NCBI GenBank assembly: GCA_014874455.1 | Contig: JADBJL010000043.1 | Location: forward strand, 1-35,889 | DNA: 35,889 bases | Direction: 5' to 3' | From: Thermomicrobiaceae bacterium | Lineage (GTDB): Bacteria; Chloroflexota; Chloroflexia; Thermomicrobiales; Thermomicrobiaceae | Position numbers and translations under genes: made by a program | The notes under the pieces: generated by a model | Told to the model about the DNA's origin: nothing | Databases searched by the model: none | What the model saw: the letters and a program-made list of their open reading frames with translations, nothing else | In this document: piece after piece, positions 1,876 to 13,748 of the stretch | How positions within the stretch are numbered: position 1 is the stretch's first letter | Layout: each line of letters begins with the position of its first letter

Positions 1876-2934
1876 ATGCGCGTGGAGGCGACCCTCGGCG
1901 ACGTGCCCTGGGACGAGATCCCGAGGCTGGCGCGGGCGATCGAGGCGATGGGCTTCGACGGCATCGCCCAGCCCGAACTCAAGCGCGACCCCTTCCTGCC
2001 GTTGGCGCTGGCCGCGACGTCCACCAGCCGCGTGCGCCTGGCCACCGCGGTCGCCATCGCGTTCCCGCGCAGCCCCACGGTCGTTGCCTACACCGCGCGC
2101 AACCTGCATGACCTCTCCCGCGGCCGCTTCGTGCTCGGCCTCGGCACGCAGGTCAAGGGCCACATCGAGCGGCGCTTCGGCGTGGTCTGGGATTCGCCCG
2201 GCCCGAGATTGCGCGAGTACGTCCAGGCCCTTCGAGCGGTCTGGGCCACCTGGCAACATGGCACGCCGCTCGACTTCCGCGGCCGGTTCTACGCGCTGTC
2301 TTTGATGACGCCGGAGTTCGATCCCGGCCCGTCCGAGTACGGGCTCCCGAAGATCCACCTCGCCGCGGTGAACCCGTATAACCTGCGGCTGGCCGGCGAG
2401 ATCGCCGACGGGCTGCGCGTGCACCCCTTCTCCACCCCCGAGTACACGCGCGAGGTGATCTGGCCTCACGTTGTCCGGGGCGCCCGGCGCGCGGGCCGCA
2501 CGCTGGACGACTTCGAGCTGGTGGCCGGCGGCTTCATCGCCACCGGCGCCACCACGGTGGAGGTGCAGGCTGCCCGCGAGCGCGTCCGCTACCGGATCGC
2601 GTTCTACGGATCCACTCGCAGCTACCGGCCCGTCCTCGAGCACCACGGTTGGGGCCGCCTGAACGATGTGCTCCACCGGCTGGCAGGTCAAGGCCGGTGG
2701 GACGAGCTGGCCACGGCGGTACCGGACGAGGTGCTCGACGCCTTCTGCGTCTCGGGCACCTACGACGACATCGCCTCGGCCGTCGGCATGCGCCTCGAGG
2801 GCCTCGTCGATACGGTCACCTTCCCGCTACCCGCTAACCCCTATGCGCCGGACGGGCGGTACCTAGCTGCGCTGGAGGGCATCAAGCGCCTCGCCCCCGC
2901 GACCTCGTATCGCGGGCAGGCCACGTCACCGTAA
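1876..2934 (+). CDS. LLM-class (probably F420-dependent) oxidoreductase
   Basis: 352 residues forming a luciferase-like TIM barrel. It is preceded by a GAGGAG-type Shine-Dalgarno at 1862-1867. The stretch RFVLGLGTQVKGHIERRFG (residues 84-102) is diagnostic of the LLM oxidoreductase subfamily known from mycobacterial F420-dependent enzymes. The barrel strand around ATAVAIAFPRSPTVVA and the later AGEIADGLRVHPF are also typical. By family it would oxidise or reduce an unknown small molecule using F420 or FMN. Its partner is the upstream M81 peptidase gene (22-base gap). It is the last gene before a hairpin-rich gap that converges with the minus-strand operon. The substrate cannot be told from sequence. 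Confidence 0.85.
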   Translation: MRVEATLGDVPWDEIPRLARAIEAMGFDGIAQPELKRDPFLPLALAATSTSRVRLATAVAIAFPRSPTVVAYTARNLHDLSRGRFVLGLGTQVKGHIERRFGVVWDSPGPRLREYVQALRAVWATWQHGTPLDFRGRFYALSLMTPEFDPGPSEYGLPKIHLAAVNPYNLRLAGEIADGLRVHPFSTPEYTREVIWPHVVRGARRAGRTLDDFELVAGGFIATGATTVEVQAARERVRYRIAFYGSTRSYRPVLEHHGWGRLNDVLHRLAGQGRWDELATAVPDEVLDAFCVSGTYDDIASAVGMRLEGLVDTVTFPLPANPYAPDGRYLAALEGIKRLAPATSYRGQATSP

Positions 2935-3314: not shown

Positions 3315-3737
3315 TCAGGTCGCCCGCACCGGCCGAAACCTGGGCAGGGTAATCTCCTCGGTCACGTCGTCATAGACGATCTCAACCGGCATGCCGATCC
3401 AGACGTGCTCCGGATCCGGCTCGACGTCCACCAGGTTCGACATCAGCCGCACACCCTCTTCCAGCTCGACGATCGCGACCACGTACGGCACGTCCTCGGC
3501 GAAGGCGGGGTCGCGGTTCTGGTAGACGATGGTGAAGGCGTGCACTACCCCGCGCCCAGAGACCGGCTCCCAGGAGATGTTGTCCGAGAGCGTGAAGGGG
3601 CTCAGCCCGCGCGGGTAGAAGAAGAACTTCCCGGTGTCGTTGCACCGTTGGATCTTCATCGCGTGTGCTTTGAGGCTCTCCCAATAGGGCGCGGTGACCG
3701 GGTCAGGCTTCGGCAAGGGCTTCTTGTATCCGCTCAT
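3315..3737 (-). CDS. DUF35 OB-fold protein, partner of the adjacent thiolase
   Basis: 140 residues. The ATG at 3737 has a GGAGGAGC Shine-Dalgarno and lies 13 bases after the thiolase stop; the longer frame upstream is out-of-frame reading of the thiolase gene and was trimmed. The N-terminal amphipathic segment (PYWESLKAHAM, 17-27) and the rubredoxin-like turn (YPR, 41-43) match DUF35. An OB-fold of beta strands follows (GRGVVHAFTIVY, PYVVAIVELEEG, GMPVEIVY). Family members normally carry four Cys that bind zinc. Here only Cys32 remains, so the zinc ribbon is degenerate. DUF35 proteins bind thiolase-like enzymes and help channel acyl-CoA substrates; in actinobacteria a DUF35 domain is required by the Ltp2 aldolase. 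That role is inferred here from the gene order. Confidence 0.85.
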   Translation of the reverse strand: MSGYKKPLPKPDPVTAPYWESLKAHAMKIQRCNDTGKFFFYPRGLSPFTLSDNISWEPVSGRGVVHAFTIVYQNRDPAFAEDVPYVVAIVELEEGVRLMSNLVDVEPDPEHVWIGMPVEIVYDDVTEEITLPRFRPVRAT

Positions 3738-3750
3738 CTCGCTCCTCCGC

Positions 3751-4902
3751 TCAATAGCGCGCCAGGATCGCTGTCCCAGCCGAAGACAGCACCCCGCCGG
3801 TTCCGTGGACGAGCGCGATGCTCGCGTCAGGCACCTGGCGAATGCCTTGGTCGACATAGTCGTGCCGGAGCTGGCGTACCGCCTCGATCACCGCGAAGAC
3901 GCCGTACATCCCTGGATGGGTATAGGAGAGCCCGCCACCGTTGGTGTTCATCGGGAAGTCACCGCCGGGGGCCGTCCGCTGGCCGCTCACGAACGCGCCG
4001 CCCTCGCCCTTGCCGCAGAAGCCCAGCTCCTCCAGCGAGAGCAGCACGGTGTAGGTGAACGAGTCGTAGATCATCGCCAGGTCGATATCGTCGTGGGTGA
4101 CGCCGGCCATCTCGAACGCGACTTTGCCCGACTGCCGCGCCGCGAAGCTGGTGTAACTGGGCATCTGCGAGATCATCGCGTGCGTATGGCTCTCGCCAAA
4201 GCCGAGCACGACGATCGGGTGCCGCCGCAGATCGCGCGCCCGCTCCAGCGAGGTCATCACGAAGGCGCCGCCAGCGTCGGTGACGAGGCAGCAGTCGAGC
4301 AGGTTGAACGGCCAGCAGATGGGCCGGGAGTTCAGCACGTCCTGGATGGTGATCGGGTCGCGCATGTAGGCCTTCGGGTTCAGCATGGCCCACTTGCGCG
4401 TCGCCACGGCGATCTCGGCCAGTTGCTCCTTCGTCGTGCCGAACTCGTACATGTGGCGCGAGCAGGCGAGCGCGTAGGCACCGACCGGCTGCGGCAGCCC
4501 GTAGGGCACCTCGAACTGGCCCCGCAGCGAATCCGGCGGCGTGACCCGTGGCGGCATGCCGACGCGCGAGCGACCGCTCTCCCCGTGCGTCACCAGCGCC
4601 ACCTGGCAACGGCCGGTCGCGATCGCCGTCGCGGCGTGGCCCACGTGGATGACGAACGACGAGCCGCCGACCGACGTGTTGTCGGTCACCGTCGGCTGGA
4701 TCCCGAGGTACTCCCCGAGTTCGGTGGTCGAGATGCCGGCAGTGAAGAGGCCGTCCACGTCGTCTTTGGTCAGGCCAGCTTCCGCCAGCGCCGAACGCGC
4801 CGCCTCGGCGTGCAGCATGATGGCCGGCTTGTCCGGCACCCGGCCGATCTGATCCGACTCCGCCACACCGACGATGGCGACCTTGCCCGATAACGCTCTC
4901 AC
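3751..4902 (-). CDS. SCP2-type thiolase family protein / Ltp2-like acyl-CoA lyase
   Basis: 383 residues from a GTG start with an AAGGAGGG Shine-Dalgarno 7 bases upstream. The fold is clear: N-terminal KVAIVGVAESD, DNTSVGGSS at 75-83 where thiolases carry the nucleophilic Cys, NTNGGGLSYTHPGMYG at 319-334 with the conserved His329, and VHGTGG near the end in place of the second catalytic Cys motif. Both catalytic Cys are therefore missing. This is the pattern of the lipid-transfer-protein group, such as the mycobacterial retro-aldolase Ltp2, rather than of a true ketothiolase. By analogy it may cleave a beta-hydroxyacyl-CoA with help from the DUF35 protein encoded 13 bases downstream. A 60-base gap separates it from the SDR gene upstream. 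The family is certain; the reaction is inference. Confidence 0.87.
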   Translation of the reverse strand: MRALSGKVAIVGVAESDQIGRVPDKPAIMLHAEAARSALAEAGLTKDDVDGLFTAGISTTELGEYLGIQPTVTDNTSVGGSSFVIHVGHAATAIATGRCQVALVTHGESGRSRVGMPPRVTPPDSLRGQFEVPYGLPQPVGAYALACSRHMYEFGTTKEQLAEIAVATRKWAMLNPKAYMRDPITIQDVLNSRPICWPFNLLDCCLVTDAGGAFVMTSLERARDLRRHPIVVLGFGESHTHAMISQMPSYTSFAARQSGKVAFEMAGVTHDDIDLAMIYDSFTYTVLLSLEELGFCGKGEGGAFVSGQRTAPGGDFPMNTNGGGLSYTHPGMYGVFAVIEAVRQLRHDYVDQGIRQVPDASIALVHGTGGVLSSAGTAILARY

Positions 4903-4962: not shown

Positions 4963-5976
4963 CTACCAGGTGAGCTCCCCGTAGGGCTCCAGCTTCGTCG
5001 CCCAGAAACGCACCCCCGGCATCACCTCGATCCACTCCCCTTCAGGGATCGCTTCGATCGCGCTCGAAAAGCCGGTTTGGTTGGTGATCGTCTCGAACTC
5101 GTGGGCGAACGCCCTCGGCACGATCTCGCACAGCTCCTCGACCGTCCAGCGGTGGTCGGCACGGAGCGTCTTGATCACCTTCGGCTGCGACATCAGCGCG
5201 ATGTTGTAGCCGAAGGCGCCGAACAGGTAGCCGTTGACCGACTGCGCCCGGTCGCTCGCGAGGAAGGCCACCAGCGGCGCAACGTTGGCTGGATCTCTCT
5301 CCGTCCCGGCAGCCAGCTCGCTGGGCAACTTGCCGTATTCCTGGAGCGTCCTCTCTCGCACGGTCGGGATCGAGTCGATCATCCGCGTCCAGCCGCTCGG
5401 TAGGACGGCGTTGGCGGTGACGTTGTAGCGGGACAGCGCGTTGGCACAGCTCAAGGTGAGCCCGATGATTCCTGCCTTGGCCGCGGCGTAGTTCGGCTGG
5501 CCAGGAGCGCCGAAAGCCGAGGTAGACGACATGTTGATGATCCGCCCCCAGCGCTGCTCGCGGAAGCGCACGGACGCCCACTTGCAGACGTTGAAGGTGC
5601 CCTTGAGGTGGACGTCCAGCACCGCCTGCCACTCCTCTTCGGTCATGTTGAAGATCATGCGGTCGCGCAGGATGCCGGCTACGTTCACCACCACGTCCAG
5701 CCGCCCAAACGCCTCCACCGCCTGCTCCACCATCCGCCCCGCCGCCCCATAGTCCGCCACCGATTCGCTGTTGGCCACCGCCCGCCCGCCGAACCCCTCG
5801 ATCTCCCGCACCACCTGCTGCGCGACCGACTCGTCCTTCCCTTCACCGCTCAGCGCCGTCCCCAGGTCGTTGACCACCACCGCCGCCCCCTCGCGGGCCA
5901 GCAGCAGCGCGATCCCCCGCCCGATCCCCCGCCCAGCCCCCGTCACCAGCGCAACCTTGCCGTCCAGCATCCCCAT
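4963..5976 (-). CDS. SDR family 3-hydroxyacyl-CoA dehydrogenase-like protein (copy 1)
   Basis: 337 residues. The ATG at 5976 has AGGAG 8 bases upstream; a much longer open frame reaching into the neighbouring SDR gene is spurious. NAD(P)-binding motif TGAGRGIG at 12-19, NVAG at 98-101, catalytic Ser at about 150-151, and Tyr163-x3-Lys167 in PNYAAAK. About 75 residues follow the normal SDR fold, as in the dehydrogenase part of multifunctional enzyme 2, which oxidises (3R)-hydroxyacyl-CoA. This would fit with the MaoC hydratase of the operon. The first 110 or so residues are identical to the next SDR while the rest is clearly diverged. Gap to copy 2 is 10 bases, to the thiolase 60 bases. Confidence 0.85.
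   Translation of the reverse strand: MGMLDGKVALVTGAGRGIGRGIALLLAREGAAVVVNDLGTALSGEGKDESVAQQVVREIEGFGGRAVANSESVADYGAAGRMVEQAVEAFGRLDVVVNVAGILRDRMIFNMTEEEWQAVLDVHLKGTFNVCKWASVRFREQRWGRIINMSSTSAFGAPGQPNYAAAKAGIIGLTLSCANALSRYNVTANAVLPSGWTRMIDSIPTVRERTLQEYGKLPSELAAGTERDPANVAPLVAFLASDRAQSVNGYLFGAFGYNIALMSQPKVIKTLRADHRWTVEELCEIVPRAFAHEFETITNQTGFSSAIEAIPEGEWIEVMPGVRFWATKLEPYGELTW
5639..5968. repeat. 330-bp exact direct repeat, copy 1 (5' part of SDR copy 1)
   Basis: Compared base by base by eye with 6675-7004, this block shows no difference over 330 bases. It covers codons 3 to about 112 of the SDR gene. On both sides the two genes differ at once (first mismatches at 5638 and 5969). Confidence 0.9.
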
Positions 5977-5986
5977 CGCTTCGCTC

Positions 5987-7012
5987 CTAGCGCTTCGCGT
6001 CGTAGTAGGCTCGCCGCTCCCAGAGCTGGATCCCCGGCGCGATCTCCCGCCAGCTCGCCGGGTCAGCTTGCATGGCTGCCGTCCCCCGCACCGGCCGGTC
6101 GTAGCCTGGTAGCTCGACCGAATCAGGCAGCCGAAGGAGCGGTTCCATCGTGCTGGGGAAAACCTCCGCGATCTCCGCTGGCGACCAGCCGCCCTCCTTA
6201 CGCAGCACCGCCGCCAGCTCCCAGTGCGAGTAGATCGAGATGGTGTAGCCGCGCACGCCGAAGAAGTGCCCGTTGATATGCGCGGCTTCATCGGTCGCGA
6301 GGAATGCCACCATCGGCGCGACGTTGGCCGGGTCGCCCTCGGTGCCCTCGGCCAGCTCGCTCGGCGGCTTGCCGTGCACCCGCGCGAACTCCTGCCCGCG
6401 CGGCGTCGAGTCGATCATCCGCGTGGTGGCGTACGGCAGAATCGCATTCGCGGTCACGTTGTACTTCGCCATGCTGTTGGCCAGCACCGCGGTCAGGCCC
6501 AAGATCCCGTACTTGGCCGCCGCGTAGTTGGGCTGGCCTGGGCTTCCCCAGGCAGAGACGCTGGAGAAGTTGATGATCCGCCCACTCCGCTGCTGCCGCA
6601 TCAGGGCGGTCGCGTGCCGGCAGACGTTGAACGTCCCGTTCAGGTGCACCGCCGAGACCGCGTCCCACTCCTCCTCGGTCATGTTGAAGATCATGCGGTC
6701 GCGCAGGATGCCGGCTACGTTCACCACCACGTCCAGCCGCCCAAACGCCTCCACCGCCTGCTCCACCATCCGCCCCGCCGCCCCATAGTCCGCCACCGAT
6801 TCGCTGTTGGCCACCGCCCGCCCGCCGAACCCCTCGATCTCCCGCACCACCTGCTGCGCGACCGACTCGTCCTTCCCTTCACCGCTCAGCGCCGTCCCCA
6901 GGTCGTTGACCACCACCGCCGCCCCCTCGCGGGCCAGCAGCAGCGCGATCCCCCGCCCGATCCCCCGCCCAGCCCCCGTCACCAGCGCAACCTTGCCGTC
7001 CAGCTTGCCCAT
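5987..7012 (-). CDS. SDR family 3-hydroxyacyl-CoA dehydrogenase-like protein (copy 2)
   Basis: 341 residues from an ATG with GGAGGGAGCGG just upstream. Same layout as copy 1: TGAGRGIG 12-19, the acidic NDLG after strand 2 (suggesting NAD rather than NADP), NVAG 98-101, FSS at 149-151, Tyr163-x3-Lys167, and an extra C-terminal region of about 80 residues with an amphipathic segment (SPAEIAEVFPSTMEPLL). After residue 116 it differs from copy 1 at many positions, in substrate-loop residues as well as in the tail. The two enzymes therefore probably act on different hydroxyacyl or hydroxysteroid-like substrates of the same pathway. It follows the metallophosphoesterase gene after 76 bases. Confidence 0.85.
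   Translation of the reverse strand: MGKLDGKVALVTGAGRGIGRGIALLLAREGAAVVVNDLGTALSGEGKDESVAQQVVREIEGFGGRAVANSESVADYGAAGRMVEQAVEAFGRLDVVVNVAGILRDRMIFNMTEEEWDAVSAVHLNGTFNVCRHATALMRQQRSGRIINFSSVSAWGSPGQPNYAAAKYGILGLTAVLANSMAKYNVTANAILPYATTRMIDSTPRGQEFARVHGKPPSELAEGTEGDPANVAPMVAFLATDEAAHINGHFFGVRGYTISIYSHWELAAVLRKEGGWSPAEIAEVFPSTMEPLLRLPDSVELPGYDRPVRGTAAMQADPASWREIAPGIQLWERRAYYDAKR
6675..7004. repeat. 330-bp exact direct repeat, copy 2 (5' part of SDR copy 2)
   Basis: Partner of 5639-5968, same orientation, offset 1036 bases. Synonymous positions are identical too, which coding constraint alone cannot explain. Confidence 0.9.
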
Positions 7013-7088: not shown

Positions 7089-7718
7089 CTACAGCACCCC
7101 GATTCCCCTGGCGCTGCCCACTTCTCGGAAGACGACGACCCTGCGCTCGCGGTGCCAGACCGCGAACTGGCCAGCCACGAGTGCCCCGGGGTTGATCAGG
7201 TAGCGTCTCCGGGGGTCGAGCCAGAGGAGCCCGCGCGACAGGTCGAGCGGCCCGCGGTCGTCCCGTGCCTGCCGGTAATGCGTGTGCCCGGCGAAGGTGA
7301 CACGAGGGTGGCCATTGGAGGGCACGCTCTCCGTTCTACCCGCCATCCGGCTCAAGGGTATGTCGTGCATCCAGTCGGCGCCCGTTGCCTCGTGAATCAG
7401 GCACGCATCCTCGATCACCAGCCGGTCGCGTAGTGAAGCCAGCAGCTTGACCGTCTCGTCACGCAGCAGCGACCGGCATGCCTCGGTCGCCAGCGTCGCC
7501 AGCATGGTCGCTCGCTCATGGTTCCCGTACACCCCGATGACGGGCCAGTCAGCGAGCAGGAGCGCACAGCGGTCTGCTTGGTCGACCCGATCGAACAGGT
7601 CGCCGAGCAGTGCGATAGTCTCAACGCCCTCGCTGCGGCATAGCTCCAGCGCCCGGCGCAGCACCTCGTGCTCGCCGTGCACGTCCGCCAGCAATGCCAC
7701 GACCTGCCCGAGGCTCAT
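7089..7718 (-). CDS. calcineurin-like metallophosphoesterase
   Basis: 209 residues. The ATG at 7718 overlaps the stop of the acyl-CoA synthetase gene (ATGA), so translation is coupled; ten residues of upstream open frame were dropped. All metal-binding motifs of the YfcE/PrpE-like phosphoesterases are present: D-x-H-G at 12-15, GDLFDR at 39-44, GNHE at 65-68, a His at 109 (LIHE) and GHTH at 144-147. It should hydrolyse a phosphomonoester or phosphodiester using two metal ions in the cytoplasm. Its position inside a fatty-acid-type operon suggests a substrate or regulatory nucleotide linked to that pathway, but nothing in the sequence identifies it. Confidence 0.85.
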   Translation of the reverse strand: MSLGQVVALLADVHGEHEVLRRALELCRSEGVETIALLGDLFDRVDQADRCALLLADWPVIGVYGNHERATMLATLATEACRSLLRDETVKLLASLRDRLVIEDACLIHEATGADWMHDIPLSRMAGRTESVPSNGHPRVTFAGHTHYRQARDDRGPLDLSRGLLWLDPRRRYLINPGALVAGQFAVWHRERRVVVFREVGSARGIGVL

Positions 7719-9979
7719 CGCTCGCCCCGCGCCGGAACGATCAGGCAATCCACCACCCTGGCTCCCCGGCCGCGCTCGAAGACCACCAGCGGGTTGATGT
7801 CGATCTCGCTCACGTCGTCTTTCAGGTCGATGCAGAGCTGGGAGAAGCGGAGTAAGAGCTCGACCACCGCGTCCAGATCGGCCGGCCCAGTCCCACGGGC
7901 ACCGGTTTCGAGGAGCGGCGCCGCGCGCAGCCGCGCCAGCATCGCCCGGCAGTCGCGCCCGGTCAGGGGCGGTACCCCCAGCGCCACGTCCCTCAACAGC
8001 TCGACGAAGACCCCGCCGAGGCCGACCGCAATTGCCGGCCCGTAGACTGGATCGACCTTCATCCCCAGGATCAGCTCCCGCCCTTCCGCGACCATCTCCT
8101 GCACGAGCACCCCACTGATGCGTGCGGCGGGCGCGTACCGGCGCGCATTCTCCACGATGCGCGCGAAGCCCTCGCGCACCGCGTGATCGCCGGTAACGCC
8201 GAGCAGCACCCCACCGGCCTCGGTCTTGTGCACGATGTCGGGCGACTCGACCTTGAGCGCCACCGGGTAGCCGATCTCGCGCGCCGCCGCCAGCGCCTCC
8301 CCGGGGCTCGTAGCCAGGCGCTCGCGCGTCACCGGGATGCCGTAGAGGTCAAGGAGTTGCTTCGCCTCGCGCTCGACCAGCGGCCGCCCACCAGCGGCGC
8401 GCACCAGCGCCCGTGCCGCCTCAGCCACGGCGCTCGCCTGTGCCACCGAGCGCGGCTCAGCCTGGCGGCCTCGCAGGAACTCAGCGTAGCGGATCAGCGC
8501 GCGGACTGCCCGAAGGCCATTCTCTGCTCCCTGCAGGAACGGCACCCCGTCCAGGTGCGTCACCGGCTCCACGGGTGGCTGCCCCCAACGAGAACCGTCG
8601 TGCATCTTGCCCGTCACTAAGGACATCACCAGGAAGACTTTGTCCGGATACCGCTCCGGCATCGATCGGATGACCTGGCCGACCGGCGACGCGAGGTCGA
8701 TCATGTTGGGATAGGCCTGGCCGTACACGACCGTGTGGATGTTGGGGTCTTCGGCCATCGCGACGAGGGAGCCTTCGGTGATCTCGGGCTGCGTGGCCGC
8801 CTGGCCGGTGGTATCGAGCGGGTTGCCGACCGTGCCATACGGCGGTATGACGGGTTTGAGCTTCGCGACCGTCTCCGGTGCCAGCTCCGGGAGAGAGACG
8901 CCGAGATCCTGGCAGAGGTCGGAGATCAGCCCTCCCGCACCACCAGACACGAAAATCGTTCCGACTCCTGGCCCCTTCGGCAGCCGCTTCGAGTGGAAGG
9001 CCGCCAGCGTCTCGATCATCTCGTCCAGCGTGTTGACCCGGATGATGCCGTACTGCCGCATCACCGCGTCGATGACCTCGTCCGAGCCGACGAGCGAGCC
9101 GGTATGGGCCAGCGCCGCCTGCCGGGCTCGTTCCGAGCGGCCGACCTTCAAGACCACGATCGGCTTGGCGGCATCCGCTGCCTGCTCGGCTACCTCGAGC
9201 AGCTTCTGCGGGTCGCGGAACTGCTCGATGAAGCACCCAATGACCCGTGTCTGCTCGTCCTCGACACAGAAGCGGATGAAATCAGCAGCCTCCAGGTCGG
9301 CCTCGTTGCCGGTCGTCACCACGTAGGTAAAGCCGATCTTCCGGTCTTGAGGCGGGATGATCATGCTGTACGTAAGCAAGCCGCTCTGGAAGACGAGCGC
9401 GATGGGCCCACGCGCGATGCTGGTGTAGGGCCCGGACTTGGCCACCAGCTTCGCCGGGGTACTGACCAGCCCGAGACAGTTCGGCCCCACGACCCGGATA
9501 CCGGTGCGCCGAGCGAACTCCCGGATCTCGACTTGCCGACGTCGGGCGTCCTCGTCGTCCTGCTCTCCGAAGCCGCTGGTGATGATGTTGACCGTGGTCA
9601 CCCCCGCCCGCTCGGCCTGCTCCAGCACGCCGAGGACTGCGTGGGAAGGCACCACGATGACGGCCTGATCAACGCCGCCGGGAATGGCGTCGAGCGTCGG
9701 ATAGCAGGGCGTGCCCAGCACCTCCTGGTACTTCGGGTTGACGCCGAAGACTTCCCCCTCGAACCCGAAATTCAGGATGTTCCGATGGATGTTGAAAGCG
9801 AACCCGACCTGGGGCGTCGCCCCGACGATCGCGACTCGTCTCGGGTAGAAGAGCGCTCTCATCGCGCGATGGAACGCCGCCGGCTCGTCACGCTCCGGGC
9901 TGCGTTGGGGCGCTGGAGTGCGCTGGCGCGCAATCGCTGCCGGTGCACGGTCAGCGGGAGCTGCTCGCCCGGATTCCAT
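7715..9979 (-). CDS. ADP-forming acyl-CoA synthetase (alpha and beta parts fused)
   Basis: 754 residues. Order: CoA-binding Rossmann domain (RRVAIVGATPQVGF, 47-60), succinyl-CoA-ligase-like domain with VFQSG (196-200), phospho-His motif AHTGSLVGSD (His292), a further CoA-ligase domain with GNPLDTTGQA (386-395), and an ATP-grasp domain from about residue 535 (YPVALKVESPDIVHKTEAGG). This is the fused NDP-forming acetyl/acyl-CoA ligase family, which makes acyl-CoA reversibly with ATP to ADP plus phosphate. GGGGAGGAGG just before the ATG supports this start, although the first 35 residues are Ala/Pro-rich and not conserved. It probably activates the substrate, or recovers ATP from an acyl-CoA product, for the operon's enzymes. 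It starts 71 bases after the MaoC gene and its stop overlaps the next start. Confidence 0.87.
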   Translation of the reverse strand: MESGRAAPADRAPAAIARQRTPAPQRSPERDEPAAFHRAMRALFYPRRVAIVGATPQVGFAFNIHRNILNFGFEGEVFGVNPKYQEVLGTPCYPTLDAIPGGVDQAVIVVPSHAVLGVLEQAERAGVTTVNIITSGFGEQDDEDARRRQVEIREFARRTGIRVVGPNCLGLVSTPAKLVAKSGPYTSIARGPIALVFQSGLLTYSMIIPPQDRKIGFTYVVTTGNEADLEAADFIRFCVEDEQTRVIGCFIEQFRDPQKLLEVAEQAADAAKPIVVLKVGRSERARQAALAHTGSLVGSDEVIDAVMRQYGIIRVNTLDEMIETLAAFHSKRLPKGPGVGTIFVSGGAGGLISDLCQDLGVSLPELAPETVAKLKPVIPPYGTVGNPLDTTGQAATQPEITEGSLVAMAEDPNIHTVVYGQAYPNMIDLASPVGQVIRSMPERYPDKVFLVMSLVTGKMHDGSRWGQPPVEPVTHLDGVPFLQGAENGLRAVRALIRYAEFLRGRQAEPRSVAQASAVAEAARALVRAAGGRPLVEREAKQLLDLYGIPVTRERLATSPGEALAAAREIGYPVALKVESPDIVHKTEAGGVLLGVTGDHAVREGFARIVENARRYAPAARISGVLVQEMVAEGRELILGMKVDPVYGPAIAVGLGGVFVELLRDVALGVPPLTGRDCRAMLARLRAAPLLETGARGTGPADLDAVVELLLRFSQLCIDLKDDVSEIDINPLVVFERGRGARVVDCLIVPARGER

Positions 9980-10050: not shown

Positions 10051-10539
10051 TCAGAAGTAGATGCGGCCGATCGTCTCGGCGACGCAGGCTGGCTTCTCTT
10101 CTCCCTCGACCTCGATCGTGCGCAGGTGGGTCATCTGCACAGCCTTCCCGTCGATCTCCTCGACCGAGAGGAGCCGAGTCCGCATCCGGATCCGCTTCCC
10201 CACTCGCACCGGCGCCGGGAAGCGGACACGGTTCAGCCCGTAGTTGACCGCCATTTTCCCGCCGAGGTCGACCTTCACCCCCCGGCTCAAGCTGCCGAGA
10301 TAGGGGATCAAGGACAGCGTCAGGAAGCCGTGGGCGATGGTGCCGCCGAAGAAGGTCTGCTTGGCTCGCTCCGGGTCGACGTGGATGTACTGGTGGTCGC
10401 CGGTGGCGTCGGCAAAGGCATTCACCCGCTCCTGGGTGATCTCGACCCACTCGCTGACGCCGATCTCCTCCCCCACGAGCTGCTTCAGCTCCTCGACCGT
10501 CCTGACCACGCGCTCGGGCAGCGCTTGGGGTTCGCTCAC
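10051..10539 (-). CDS. MaoC family (R)-specific enoyl-CoA hydratase
   Basis: 162 residues, a single hot-dog domain. The GTG at 10539 is chosen because AGGAG lies exactly 6 bases upstream; an earlier GTG at 10578, overlapping the previous stop, has no such site. The catalytic Asp-x4-His of the hydratase-2 motif is present in ATGDHQYIHVD (Asp48, His53), followed by GGTIAHGFLTLSL. It would add water to a trans-2-enoyl-CoA to give an (R)-3-hydroxyacyl-CoA, between the acyl-CoA dehydrogenases just upstream and the SDR dehydrogenases downstream. Proteins of this type usually work as dimers. Confidence 0.87.
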   Translation of the reverse strand: MSEPQALPERVVRTVEELKQLVGEEIGVSEWVEITQERVNAFADATGDHQYIHVDPERAKQTFFGGTIAHGFLTLSLIPYLGSLSRGVKVDLGGKMAVNYGLNRVRFPAPVRVGKRIRMRTRLLSVEEIDGKAVQMTHLRTIEVEGEEKPACVAETIGRIYF

Positions 10540-10574
10540 CACTGTCTCCTCTCCCTGCCCGCGCTCGCCGGGAC

Positions 10575-11726
10575 TCACGCCGAGCCGGCGACACGGCCGG
10601 CCAGCACCTCTTGCAACACCCGCTCGCGGTGGTACTCCGTATCGCCGTAGAGTGGCTCCAGGTGCTTCGCTCGCTTGAAGTAGAGGTGCAGGTCGTACTC
10701 CCAGGTGAAGCCGATCCCGCCGTGCACCTGGATGGCCTCGCCGCAGACGCGGCGCGCCGCCACGTTGACCGTCGACTTGGCTACCGAGGCCGCCAGCGCT
10801 GCGTCGGGCGCCCCGGCGTCGAGCGCCCAGGCCGCGTAGTACACGGCCGCGTGGGCGTTCTCGACCAGCTCCAGCATCTCGGCCAGCTTGTGCTTGATGG
10901 CCTGGAACTGCCCGATGTACTGGCCGAACTGCTTGCGCACCTTGGCGTAGTCGACCGACATCTCGAGCGCCTTACGTGCCGCGCCCAGCATCTCGGCGCT
11001 GGCACCCACCGCCGCTTGCCGGAGTGCCAGCTCCACCGCGGGCCAGGCGCCGCCCTCGGGCCCGACCAGGTTCTCCGCCGGAACCCGCACGCCTTCGAAG
11101 CGCAGCGTCGCCGTCTTCGAGGTCAGATCCATCATCACCTCGGGCTCGATCGCGAGCCCGGGCGCATCGGCTGGAACGGCGACCAGTGAGATCCCTTCAG
11201 CACCGCGCCCCTCGCCCGCTCGGGCGACGACCAGGATCACGTCCACCGACTGCCCGAACGGCACGAAGCGCTTGATCCCGTCGAGCCGGTAGCCGTCGCC
11301 GTCTCGCCGCAGGGAGAGGCTGATGGCCTCAGGCCCCCAGGCGATCCCACCCTCCAGGAAAGCGAGCGACATTGTCAGATCGCCGTTGCAGACGTCCGGG
11401 AGATAGCGCGCCTGCGCGCGGCGGTCGCCCGAGGCCATGAGCGCCCCGCCGGCCAGGATCACGGTGGCGAAGTACGGCCCAGGGTACGGGATGCGACCCA
11501 TCTCCTCGAGCACGATCGCTTGCTCGATCATCCCGAGCCCGGCCCCGCCGTACTCCTCGGGGAAGGGAAGCGTGCCGAGCTGGATCAACCGCCGGTACAG
11601 GCCGCGATCGTAGCCACGCGGGTCGTCCATCATCGCGCGGACGTGGCTGACCGGACACTGCTCGCTCAGGAACTCCCGCACCAGGCCGCGCAGCATGACC
11701 TGATCTTCGGTGAACTCGAAATCCAT
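10575..11726 (-). CDS. acyl-CoA dehydrogenase, subunit lacking the catalytic Glu
   Basis: 383 residues. The ATG at 11726 lies one base after the stop of the preceding dehydrogenase gene (TGAGATG), so the pair is translationally coupled; upstream open frame is that gene read out of frame. ACAD signatures: FPEEYGGAGLGMIEQAIVLEE (55-75), RKQFGQYIGQFQAIKHKLAEM (264-284) and QVHGGIGFTWEYDLHLYFKR (333-352). The helix position that carries the catalytic Glu in the neighbour has ALRQAAVG, and the C-terminal end has LYGDTEYH instead of the usual E-G-T motif, so no catalytic base is seen at either known site. This is what is known for one subunit of actinobacterial alpha2-beta2 steroid acyl-CoA dehydrogenases (FadE28/FadE29 type). 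Heterotetramer formation is inferred. Confidence 0.87.
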   Translation of the reverse strand: MDFEFTEDQVMLRGLVREFLSEQCPVSHVRAMMDDPRGYDRGLYRRLIQLGTLPFPEEYGGAGLGMIEQAIVLEEMGRIPYPGPYFATVILAGGALMASGDRRAQARYLPDVCNGDLTMSLAFLEGGIAWGPEAISLSLRRDGDGYRLDGIKRFVPFGQSVDVILVVARAGEGRGAEGISLVAVPADAPGLAIEPEVMMDLTSKTATLRFEGVRVPAENLVGPEGGAWPAVELALRQAAVGASAEMLGAARKALEMSVDYAKVRKQFGQYIGQFQAIKHKLAEMLELVENAHAAVYYAAWALDAGAPDAALAASVAKSTVNVAARRVCGEAIQVHGGIGFTWEYDLHLYFKRAKHLEPLYGDTEYHRERVLQEVLAGRVAGSA

Positions 11727-11727
11727 C

Positions 11728-12975
11728 TCAGTCCGCTCCGTCCCCACTTGCGGCTCTGGCCGTCTGTGCCGCAACGCGGTCGGCCCGCACCTCTTTCGGC
11801 AGGCCGAGTACCCGTTCGCCGATGATGTTCTTCTGGATCTCGGAAGAGCCCGCGTAGATCGTGCCTGCGCGCGACCAGAGGAAGGCGTACATCCAGCTTC
11901 CCTCTTCGCCATAGTCGACACCGGGTACCAGCGCGAGCTCGTCGGGAAGACCGCCCACCTGCTGGCCGTAGGGGCCCAGCACGTCCAGGATCGACTCCTG
12001 GACACGCTTATCGAGTTCGGAGTAGTGCAGCTTGGCGAGCGAGGACTCCGGGCCGGGGCGCAGCCCACGCTCCAACCGGCTCAAGATACGGAGCGAGGCA
12101 TAGCGCAGCACTTCCATCTCAGCGTAGATCTGCCCGAGCTTTTGCCGCACCACCGGATCCTCGATGGCCGGGCGACCGTCTCGCTGCAACACCCAGCAGA
12201 CCTCGAGCAGCCTGGTGACTTGCTGGAGCATTCGCGCGTAGCGGCTGAGCGTGTTGCCACCCCGCTCGTAGGAGAGCGTCGTCTGGGCGATCCGCCACCC
12301 GGCGTTGAGCTCACCAACCAGGTTCTCGCGAGGCACGCGGACATTGGTGAAGAACACCTCGCAGAACTCGCCGCTTCCGCTGATCTGCTTGAGCGTCCGC
12401 ACCTCGATACCTGGGGAATGCATGTCGACCAGGAGGCAGGAAATCCCCTCGTGCTTGGGCGCGGTGCGGTCAGTTCGAGCCAGCAGCAGGCCCCAATCCG
12501 CGTTGTGGGCGCCGCTCGTCCAGATCTTCTGTCCGTTGATCACGAACTCGTCGCCGTCGAGGTCGGCGCGGCACTGGAGGCTGGCTAGGTCGGAGCCGGC
12601 GTTGGGCTCTGAGTAGAGCTGGCACCAGAGCTCCTCGGCCGTGAGCAGCTTGTGGATGAAGCGCCGCTTTTGCTGCTCGGTTCCGTGGTGGATCAGGGTG
12701 GGGATCACGATCGCGATGCCGAGGCCGTTGAGCGGGGGCGGTGCCTTGGCCCGCACCATCTCTTCCCCGACGATCGCCTGCTCCATCGGTCGCGCGTCGC
12801 GCCCGCCGTATTCCCTGGGCAACCCCATGCCGACGAAGCCAGCGTCGTACAGCTTGCGGTGCCAGGCCTTCTTCTCCTCCATCGTGGTGAGCTTCTGGCG
12901 CGGCACGTTCTCGGCCAGCCAGGCGCGTACCCGCTGCCTGAAGGCCTGATCCTCGGCCGTATAGCTGAGATCCAT
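11728..12975 (-). CDS. acyl-CoA dehydrogenase, catalytic subunit
   Basis: 415 residues and the first gene of the operon. The ATG at 12975 has GGAGGG five bases upstream; a frame reaching 13212 is not supported. Motifs: LPREYGGR (52-59), CQLYSEPNAGSDLASLQ (118-134), GQKIWTSGAHNADW (148-161), and YAGSSEIQKNIIGERVLG (374-391). The usual C-terminal catalytic Glu is replaced by Ala375 (YAG instead of YEG), but Glu237 in LSYERGG occupies the alternative base position used by long-chain, isovaleryl and many FadE enzymes. It would carry FAD and form the alpha,beta double bond of an acyl-CoA, passing electrons to an ETF not encoded here. Confidence 0.87.
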   Translation of the reverse strand: MDLSYTAEDQAFRQRVRAWLAENVPRQKLTTMEEKKAWHRKLYDAGFVGMGLPREYGGRDARPMEQAIVGEEMVRAKAPPPLNGLGIAIVIPTLIHHGTEQQKRRFIHKLLTAEELWCQLYSEPNAGSDLASLQCRADLDGDEFVINGQKIWTSGAHNADWGLLLARTDRTAPKHEGISCLLVDMHSPGIEVRTLKQISGSGEFCEVFFTNVRVPRENLVGELNAGWRIAQTTLSYERGGNTLSRYARMLQQVTRLLEVCWVLQRDGRPAIEDPVVRQKLGQIYAEMEVLRYASLRILSRLERGLRPGPESSLAKLHYSELDKRVQESILDVLGPYGQQVGGLPDELALVPGVDYGEEGSWMYAFLWSRAGTIYAGSSEIQKNIIGERVLGLPKEVRADRVAAQTARAASGDGAD

Positions 12976-13357: not shown

Positions 13358-13444
13358 GCCGAGGTGGCGGAACAGGCAGACGCGCTACCTTGAGGGGGTA
13401 GTGCCCGAAAGGGCGTGGGGGTTCAAATCCCTTCCTCGGCACCA
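13358..13444 (+). tRNA. tRNA-Leu (anticodon GAG)
   Basis: Acceptor GCCGAGG pairs with CCTCGGC. The anticodon stem CTACC/GGTAG encloses GAG at 13392-13394. A long variable arm (GCCCGAAAGGGC) marks a class II tRNA, and the T-loop is TTCAAAT. The discriminator A (13441) and CCA (13442-13444) are encoded, unlike in the other four tRNAs here. It reads CUC and CUU. Confidence 0.95.
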
Positions 13445-13457
13445 GGGTCGTGCTTAT

Positions 13458-13530
13458 GGGCGATTAGCTCAGTTGGTAGAGCGCCACGTTTACACCGTGG
13501 AAGTCAGAGGTTCGAGTCCTCTATCGCCCA
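13458..13530 (+). tRNA. tRNA-Val (anticodon TAC)
   Basis: Acceptor GGGCGAT pairs with ATCGCCC. Anticodon stem CCACG/CGTGG with TAC at 13491-13493, T-loop TTCGAGT, discriminator A at 13530. CCA is not encoded (CGA follows). Thirteen bases after tRNA-Leu, so same transcript. Confidence 0.95.
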
Positions 13531-13541
13531 CGAACGCGGGT

Positions 13542-13610
13542 TGCCCGGCGAAGTCCAAGCCGCGCTCGCATGGCGGAGCACGATTGTACCAGAGCCGGGC
13601 ACTTTTCTTT
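13542..13610 (+). other. possible long-loop hairpin with U-rich tail after tRNA-Val
   Basis: TGCCCGGC (13542-13549) pairs with GCCGGGCA (13594-13601) across a 44-base loop and is followed by CTTTTCTTT. It could be a weak terminator or a processing structure between tRNA-Val and tRNA-Phe. The long loop makes this uncertain. Confidence 0.3.
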
Positions 13611-13669
13611 GAGCAGTTCGGCGGGGAGACCAGGATACGTCATCCCGGCCTGAATCCCCGGCAGAGCGA

Positions 13670-13742
13670 GGTCGGGTAGCTCAGTCGGTAGAGCACGTGA
13701 CTGAAAATCACGGTGTCGCCGGTTCGATTCCGGCCCCGACCA
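13670..13742 (+). tRNA. tRNA-Phe (anticodon GAA)
   Basis: Acceptor GGTCGGG pairs with CCCGACC. Anticodon stem CGTGA/TCACG with GAA at 13703-13705, T arm GCCGG-TTCGATT-CCGGC fully paired, discriminator A at 13742. CCA is not encoded. Confidence 0.95.
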
Positions 13743-13748
13743 CTCGTG

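Follow-up and report, generated by a model that had tools for sequence, protein, structure and literature searches.

Two adjacent acyl-CoA dehydrogenase (ACAD) genes of a Thermomicrobiaceae bacterium very probably encode the subunits, here called alpha and beta, of an obligate heteromeric enzyme of the PimCD, ChsE4-ChsE5 and Tcur3481-3483 kind. From the sequence we infer a complex, most likely an alpha2-beta2 heterotetramer with two FADs, and its activity, which would be the first oxidation in a nine-gene cassette. The supporting observations are the layout of the genes, the division of conserved residues between the two chains, the joint presence or absence of both subunits in related genomes, their phylogeny and the conservation of the operon. 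The window, i.e., the whole stretch of DNA that was analysed, comprises 35,889 nt.

Arrangement of the gene pair

Both genes lie on the minus strand, separated by a single base (position 11727) between the TGA of the first and the ATG of the second gene, just as a sequence-only reading of this region had described them. The alpha gene (11728..12975) encodes the catalytic, PimC/ChsE4-like subunit of 415 amino acids, and its ATG start codon is preceded by AGAGGAGG. The beta gene (10575..11726) encodes the non-catalytic, PimD/Tcur3481-like subunit of 383 amino acids. In both proteins the Pfam N-terminal, middle and C-terminal ACAD domains each score above their cut-offs, making both complete three-domain members of the superfamily. 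The AlphaFold2 monomer models display the ACAD fold in both chains, with mean pLDDT values of 89.4 (alpha) and 95.0 (beta). The opposite strand holds three tRNA genes (Leu-GAG, Val-TAC and Phe-GAA; 13358-13743, plus strand) a short distance upstream of the operon.

Division of the active site between the two chains

The catalytic glutamate is present in just one product of the gene pair. In alpha, the base is Glu237 within LSYERGG, and the beta residue in the same column of the direct alignment of both chains is Ala238. The position of the MCAD-type base (YEGT) reads YGDT in beta, so that both known ACAD bases are missing from this chain. The sequence-only reading had pointed to the glutamate in the upstream protein and to an alanine and a missing EGT in the downstream one; these residues are right, and they follow a conserved pattern in the homologues rather than chance. 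E237-R238 is invariant in all 124 alpha homologues, and a glutamate occupies the base column in none of the 67 beta homologues (Ala in 54, Gly in 8, Ser in 2, Val in 1, Tyr in 1 and one gap). We rejected the missing EGT as a criterion for separating the chains. The catalytic alpha likewise lacks it, with YAGS at this place, as is to be expected when an ACAD carries its base in helix G, and its absence therefore cannot discriminate between alpha and beta.

In MCAD-type homotetramers, EPxxGSD and W-x-[TS] motifs of the middle domain hold the flavin ring, and RxxFG and QxxGGxG in the C-terminal domain of the neighbouring subunit hold the ADP end. Alpha carries the flavin half, SEPNAGSD (residues 122-129) and W152, and lacks RxxFG and QxxGGxG at the aligned places. 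Beta carries the ADP half, consisting of R264-x-x-F267-G268 (R264KQFG), Q275 and Q333-x-x-G336-G337 (Q333VHGGIG), and lacks both EPxxGSD and the flavin-site tryptophan.

The same division was found among the homologues, counted as distinct sequences after the borderline beta L081 and the ordinary ACAD L058_5849 had been excluded by hand. S-E-P-x-x-G-S-D together with W152 is present in 123 of the 124 alpha homologues (the other one is truncated). At the positions aligned with RxxFG and QxxGGxG, all 124 lack these motifs; as a plain pattern, RxxF[GD] occurs in nine of them, never at that place. Conversely, 65 of the 67 beta homologues (two are truncated) have RxxF[GD]..Q and [QE]..GG/GA, and EPxxG[ST]D was found in none of the 67. 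The invariant alpha columns include E123, P124, G127, S128, D129, W152, E237 and R238, and the invariant beta columns R264, F267, Q275 and G336, a conservation that spans phyla.

As a control, the other three ACADs of the genome (L002, L003 and L004) have flavin and ADP motifs on one chain, and so do thirteen ACADs of its relatives, allowing for some variants and for the truncation of L151. In the single ACAD L002 (G000:C106), RQTTG replaces RxxFG; the protein is otherwise complete. The sequences of the solved chains 4X28_A, 6WY9_A and 6WY8_A bear the same residue signature as alpha and beta. At the residue level, the FAD site thus appears divided, the flavin ring falling to alpha and the ADP moiety to beta. 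For ChsE4-ChsE5 and ChsE1-ChsE2, one publication assigns isoalloxazine, substrate and glutamate to alpha and the ADP-ribose contacts to beta (PMC11153573). Another places one FAD at each alpha-beta dimer interface of the ChsE heterotetramers and describes the heterotetramer as essential for activity (PMC8399759).

In the proposed enzyme, each FAD would likewise lie at an alpha/beta interface. Alpha would bind the isoalloxazine ring and the acyl-CoA, with Glu237 taking the alpha-proton. Beta would have lost the sites for base, substrate and flavin ring, and would grip the ADP end of alpha's FAD via R264-x-x-F267-G268/Q275 and Q333-x-x-G336-G337.

Co-occurrence and numbers of subunits

We compared 61 genomes, that of the bacterium and those of 60 relatives; both subunits are present in 18 of them and both are absent from 43. 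The 18 include a partial alpha in G007 and a beta cut by the contig end in G010. As these genomes are kin, close relatives do not contribute independent data points to the profile, to which no probability was assigned. Presence is mixed even inside one genus (g4), in which G010, G015 and G017 have both subunits and G006 and G013 neither.

In genomes of Acidimicrobiia, Rokubacteria and Bacillus with an alpha gene that has no flanking beta, a beta gene was found elsewhere (only a partial one in G062). We considered such orphan alphas as homotetramers and rejected this as a likely explanation, as the ADP half is missing from them too, each tested genome has a beta elsewhere, and in four such genomes the next-best ACADs are ordinary ones with both kinds of motifs.

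Several genomes have more alphas than betas. Two alpha genes and one beta gene are present in each of G021 and G028, three alpha genes and one beta gene in each of G025 and G030, and these four genomes harbour the alpha paralogues L023, L024, L025, L026, L027 and L028, which have no adjacent beta. Thirteen of the next-best ACADs of the four genomes proved to be ordinary single-gene types with both kinds of motifs, with no hidden beta among them. Beta-alpha-alpha triplets, with two catalytic subunits per beta, were identified in Rhodopseudomonas, Bradyrhizobium and a record named 'Frankia sp. RB7' (L070, L074, L079, L090-L092, L094, L095, L097, L103, L104 and L108). These gene counts, taken from assemblies that are 89-97% complete, suggest that one beta can serve several alphas.

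Relationship to known two-protein ACADs

In a phylogenetic tree of 44 rows, the window alpha grouped with the alpha chains of solved heterotetramers (4X28 and 6WY9; support 100/100) and the window beta with the Tcur3481 beta chain of known structure (6WY8; 100/99), while single ACADs formed a separate group (100/95). Both chains thus fall among the alpha2-beta2 ACADs. The two steroid enzymes separate from the rest of the alpha group, and this remainder, which includes the window alpha, has a support of 91/84. As a Thermomicrobia-type enzyme, the pair is related to enzymes known from bacteria that degrade steroids or dicarboxylates, and we found no description of it in Thermomicrobia in a literature search of titles and abstracts.

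The top four structure matches to the alpha model were 6WY9, 6WY8, 4X28 and 8HK0, with Z scores from 38.6 to 36.4; ordinary ACADs followed at 35.5 and below, a small gap to the two-protein complexes. The search with the beta model returned the general ACAD fold and did not single out heteromer beta chains, and the best PDB match to the beta sequence profile was 6WY8_A with 261 bits.

The nearest alpha structure belongs to the bile-acid ACAD Tcur3481-Tcur3483 of Thermomonospora curvata (6WY8/6WY9; Z 38.6, rmsd 2.8, 368 aligned residues). Both its chains share the residue signature of the window pair, but sequence identity is only 30-32% and its substrate is a steroid. ChsE4-ChsE5 (FadE26-FadE27) of Mycobacterium tuberculosis (4X28) resembles the window pair in having the helix-G glutamate and the flavin half on alpha; the reported assignment of isoalloxazine to its alpha and of ADP-ribose to its beta agrees with the residue division found here, and the alphas group in the tree. 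It differs in its sterol side-chain substrate and steroid gene context, and over its alpha structure the identity is about 29%. The fourth alpha match (8HK0, Z 36.4) is the Fic32-33 complex of Streptomyces ficellus, titled as a two-protein complex; this title does not name a steroid, which suggests that the architecture extends beyond steroid catabolism.

PimC-PimD, the pimeloyl-CoA dehydrogenase of Rhodopseudomonas palustris with a large and a small subunit of one enzyme, gave the best NCBIfam name for both chains. The scores are far under the equivalog cut-offs of this TIGR03204/TIGR03203 pair, with 267.9 bits against 623.85 for alpha (PimC) and 210.4 bits against 652.7 for beta (PimD); we therefore do not regard the window pair as orthologous to PimC/PimD. 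The IpdE2 family NF050027 matched beta with 162.7 bits, also below its equivalog cut-off of 450. Since PimC was matched by all 44 of 44 alpha homologues from many phyla, its name denotes an architecture, not a substrate.

The nine-gene cassette

The alpha-beta pair comprises the first genes of a run of nine genes on the same strand, the order of which is kept in the pair-bearing related families across the order, as far as the contigs reach. The gene for a MaoC-type enoyl-CoA hydratase (10051..10578, minus strand) has a GTG start and overlaps the beta stop codon by 4 bases. An ADP-forming acyl-CoA synthetase with CoA-binding, Succ_CoA_lig and ATP-grasp domains follows (7715..9979, minus strand). 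Its gene shares a 34-base overlap with that of a calcineurin-like metallophosphoesterase (7089..7748, minus strand), a constant member of the operon whose TTG start is uncertain. Next are two short-chain dehydrogenases (SDRs), both candidate 3-hydroxyacyl-CoA dehydrogenases (SDR 1, 5987..7012; SDR 2, 4963..5976; both minus strand), a thiolase/Ltp2 superfamily protein that is a close relative of PDB 4U4E (3751..4902, minus strand), and a DUF35 protein with the ChsH2 C-terminal OB-fold as its partner (3315..3737, minus strand). A TIGR03617-type F420-dependent luciferase-like oxidoreductase (1876-2934, plus strand) adjoins the operon, and related genes are found at the flank in several relatives.

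Near their 5' ends, the two SDR genes of the tandem are identical over a run of 330 bases, whereas most other 60-base blocks are only 42-80% identical. In a genome of the same genus (L116), at least three SDR copies are present and share identical stretches of 744 and 554 bases; in other families, no identical run between SDR genes exceeded 39 bases. The identical run of the window genes indicates partial gene conversion, unless the assembly is at fault.

The thiolase-like protein lacks the nucleophilic cysteine, the aligned region reading S-V-G-G, and has YDSF at the position of the catalytic YDHF of TcLtp2. It scores above the cut-off of NCBIfam PRK06158 ('acetyl-CoA acetyltransferase'), and 4U4E is annotated as a thiolase only; given the missing cysteine and YDSF at the Ltp2 motif, the PRK06158 name is doubtful. 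Ltp2 and Sal, members of the thiolase superfamily, have been described as aldolases with a bound DUF35 domain, and in Sal a glycine replaces the thiolase nucleophile (PMC12329534). By analogy, the last step of the cassette may possibly be aldolase-like rather than thiolytic, although the alignment shows no conservation of Tyr344, the second acid of Ltp2.

In the predicted reaction sequence, the ADP-forming synthetase would first turn an acid into its CoA thioester, from which the alpha-beta ACAD would then remove two hydrogens, the alpha-proton passing to Glu237 and the hydride to FAD, with the electrons presumably going on to ETF. After addition of water by MaoC, either an SDR would oxidise the hydroxyacyl-CoA or the thiolase-like/DUF35 complex would cleave it directly. 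The cassette would end in C-C cleavage by the cysteine-less thiolase/Ltp2-like protein with DUF35.

The window cassette shares its alpha-beta ACAD, MaoC, Ltp2-like and DUF35 components with the igr-type cassette (ChsE1-ChsE2, ChsH1-ChsH2 and Ltp2). It differs in the additional ADP-forming CoA ligase, two SDRs and phosphoesterase, in having DUF35 as a separate gene, and in the YDSF of its Ltp2-like protein, which is YDHF in Ltp2.

Alternative explanations and the question of the substrate

The two genes could instead encode two separate homotetrameric ACADs that merely lie next to each other, the second being a decayed or moonlighting paralogue. This we regard as extremely unlikely. Both models do have a complete ACAD fold, that of beta with the high pLDDT given above, and beta has kept canonical ADP-binding motifs. 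However, each chain has only half of the residues required for a homomeric FAD site, beta has invariant residues (R264, F267, Q275 and G336) across phyla and is not decayed, and the two subunits are together present or together absent throughout the 61 genomes. The divided FAD site, this strict co-occurrence and the placement in the tree support the FadE-type heteromer of one active and one inactive subunit that had been predicted from the sequence. The accompanying view that this architecture is the hallmark of steroid-CoA enzymes was too narrow. The same alpha-beta architecture has been proposed for PimCD and dicarboxylate enzymes (PMC12543098), and Fic32-33 is among the closest structures.

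A role of pair and cassette in degrading the side chain of sterols or bile acids, as for the Mycobacterium igr operon, appears quite improbable, even though the cassette contains the igr-type parts and the nearest solved alpha structures are steroid ACADs. The clade of the window alpha excludes the steroid alpha chains, which branch apart; by descent, the window alpha is therefore not a steroid ACAD. The Ltp2-like protein also deviates at the YDHF motif. As the steroid gene to be tested we chose KshA (KshA_C), the ring-degradation oxygenase, which was found in none of six Thermomicrobia-type genomes and in five of five control genomes of Mycobacterium, Nocardia and Alteromonadaceae. Growth on steroid rings via the KshA route is therefore unlikely; this result bears on the rings, and degradation of the side chain alone is compatible with it. 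Weakened by the absence of KshA and by the position in the tree, a steroid substrate is not supported. It is also unlikely that the pair acts on dicarboxylyl-CoA (pimeloyl, suberyl or longer) in the manner of PimCD. PimC and PimD are the best NCBIfam matches, and PimCD-like pairs of beta-proteobacteria have dicarboxylate fitness phenotypes (PMC12543098), but the scores are less than half of the cut-offs and the PimC match, shared by alphas of many phyla, is an architecture label.

Implications

With the heteromeric ACAD as the preferred reading, the residue division provides a test applicable to any genome: a flavin motif and the glutamate on one protein, with RxxFG and QxxGG on the other, flags obligate heteromers against ordinary ACADs. 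As a tentative and rather speculative extension, beta may act in some Thermomicrobia-type genomes as a common FAD-holding scaffold for two to three different alphas, giving several substrate ranges, while the alpha-beta pair of the operon would work in the nine-gene cassette, cleaving an acid by an aldolase-like, cysteine-independent step. With the genomes that have one beta and several alphas, subunit sharing could be tested directly. Dehydrogenases with a split site and two genes are now extended to a conserved operon of Thermomicrobia-type Chloroflexota, which are KshA-negative in the six tested genomes.
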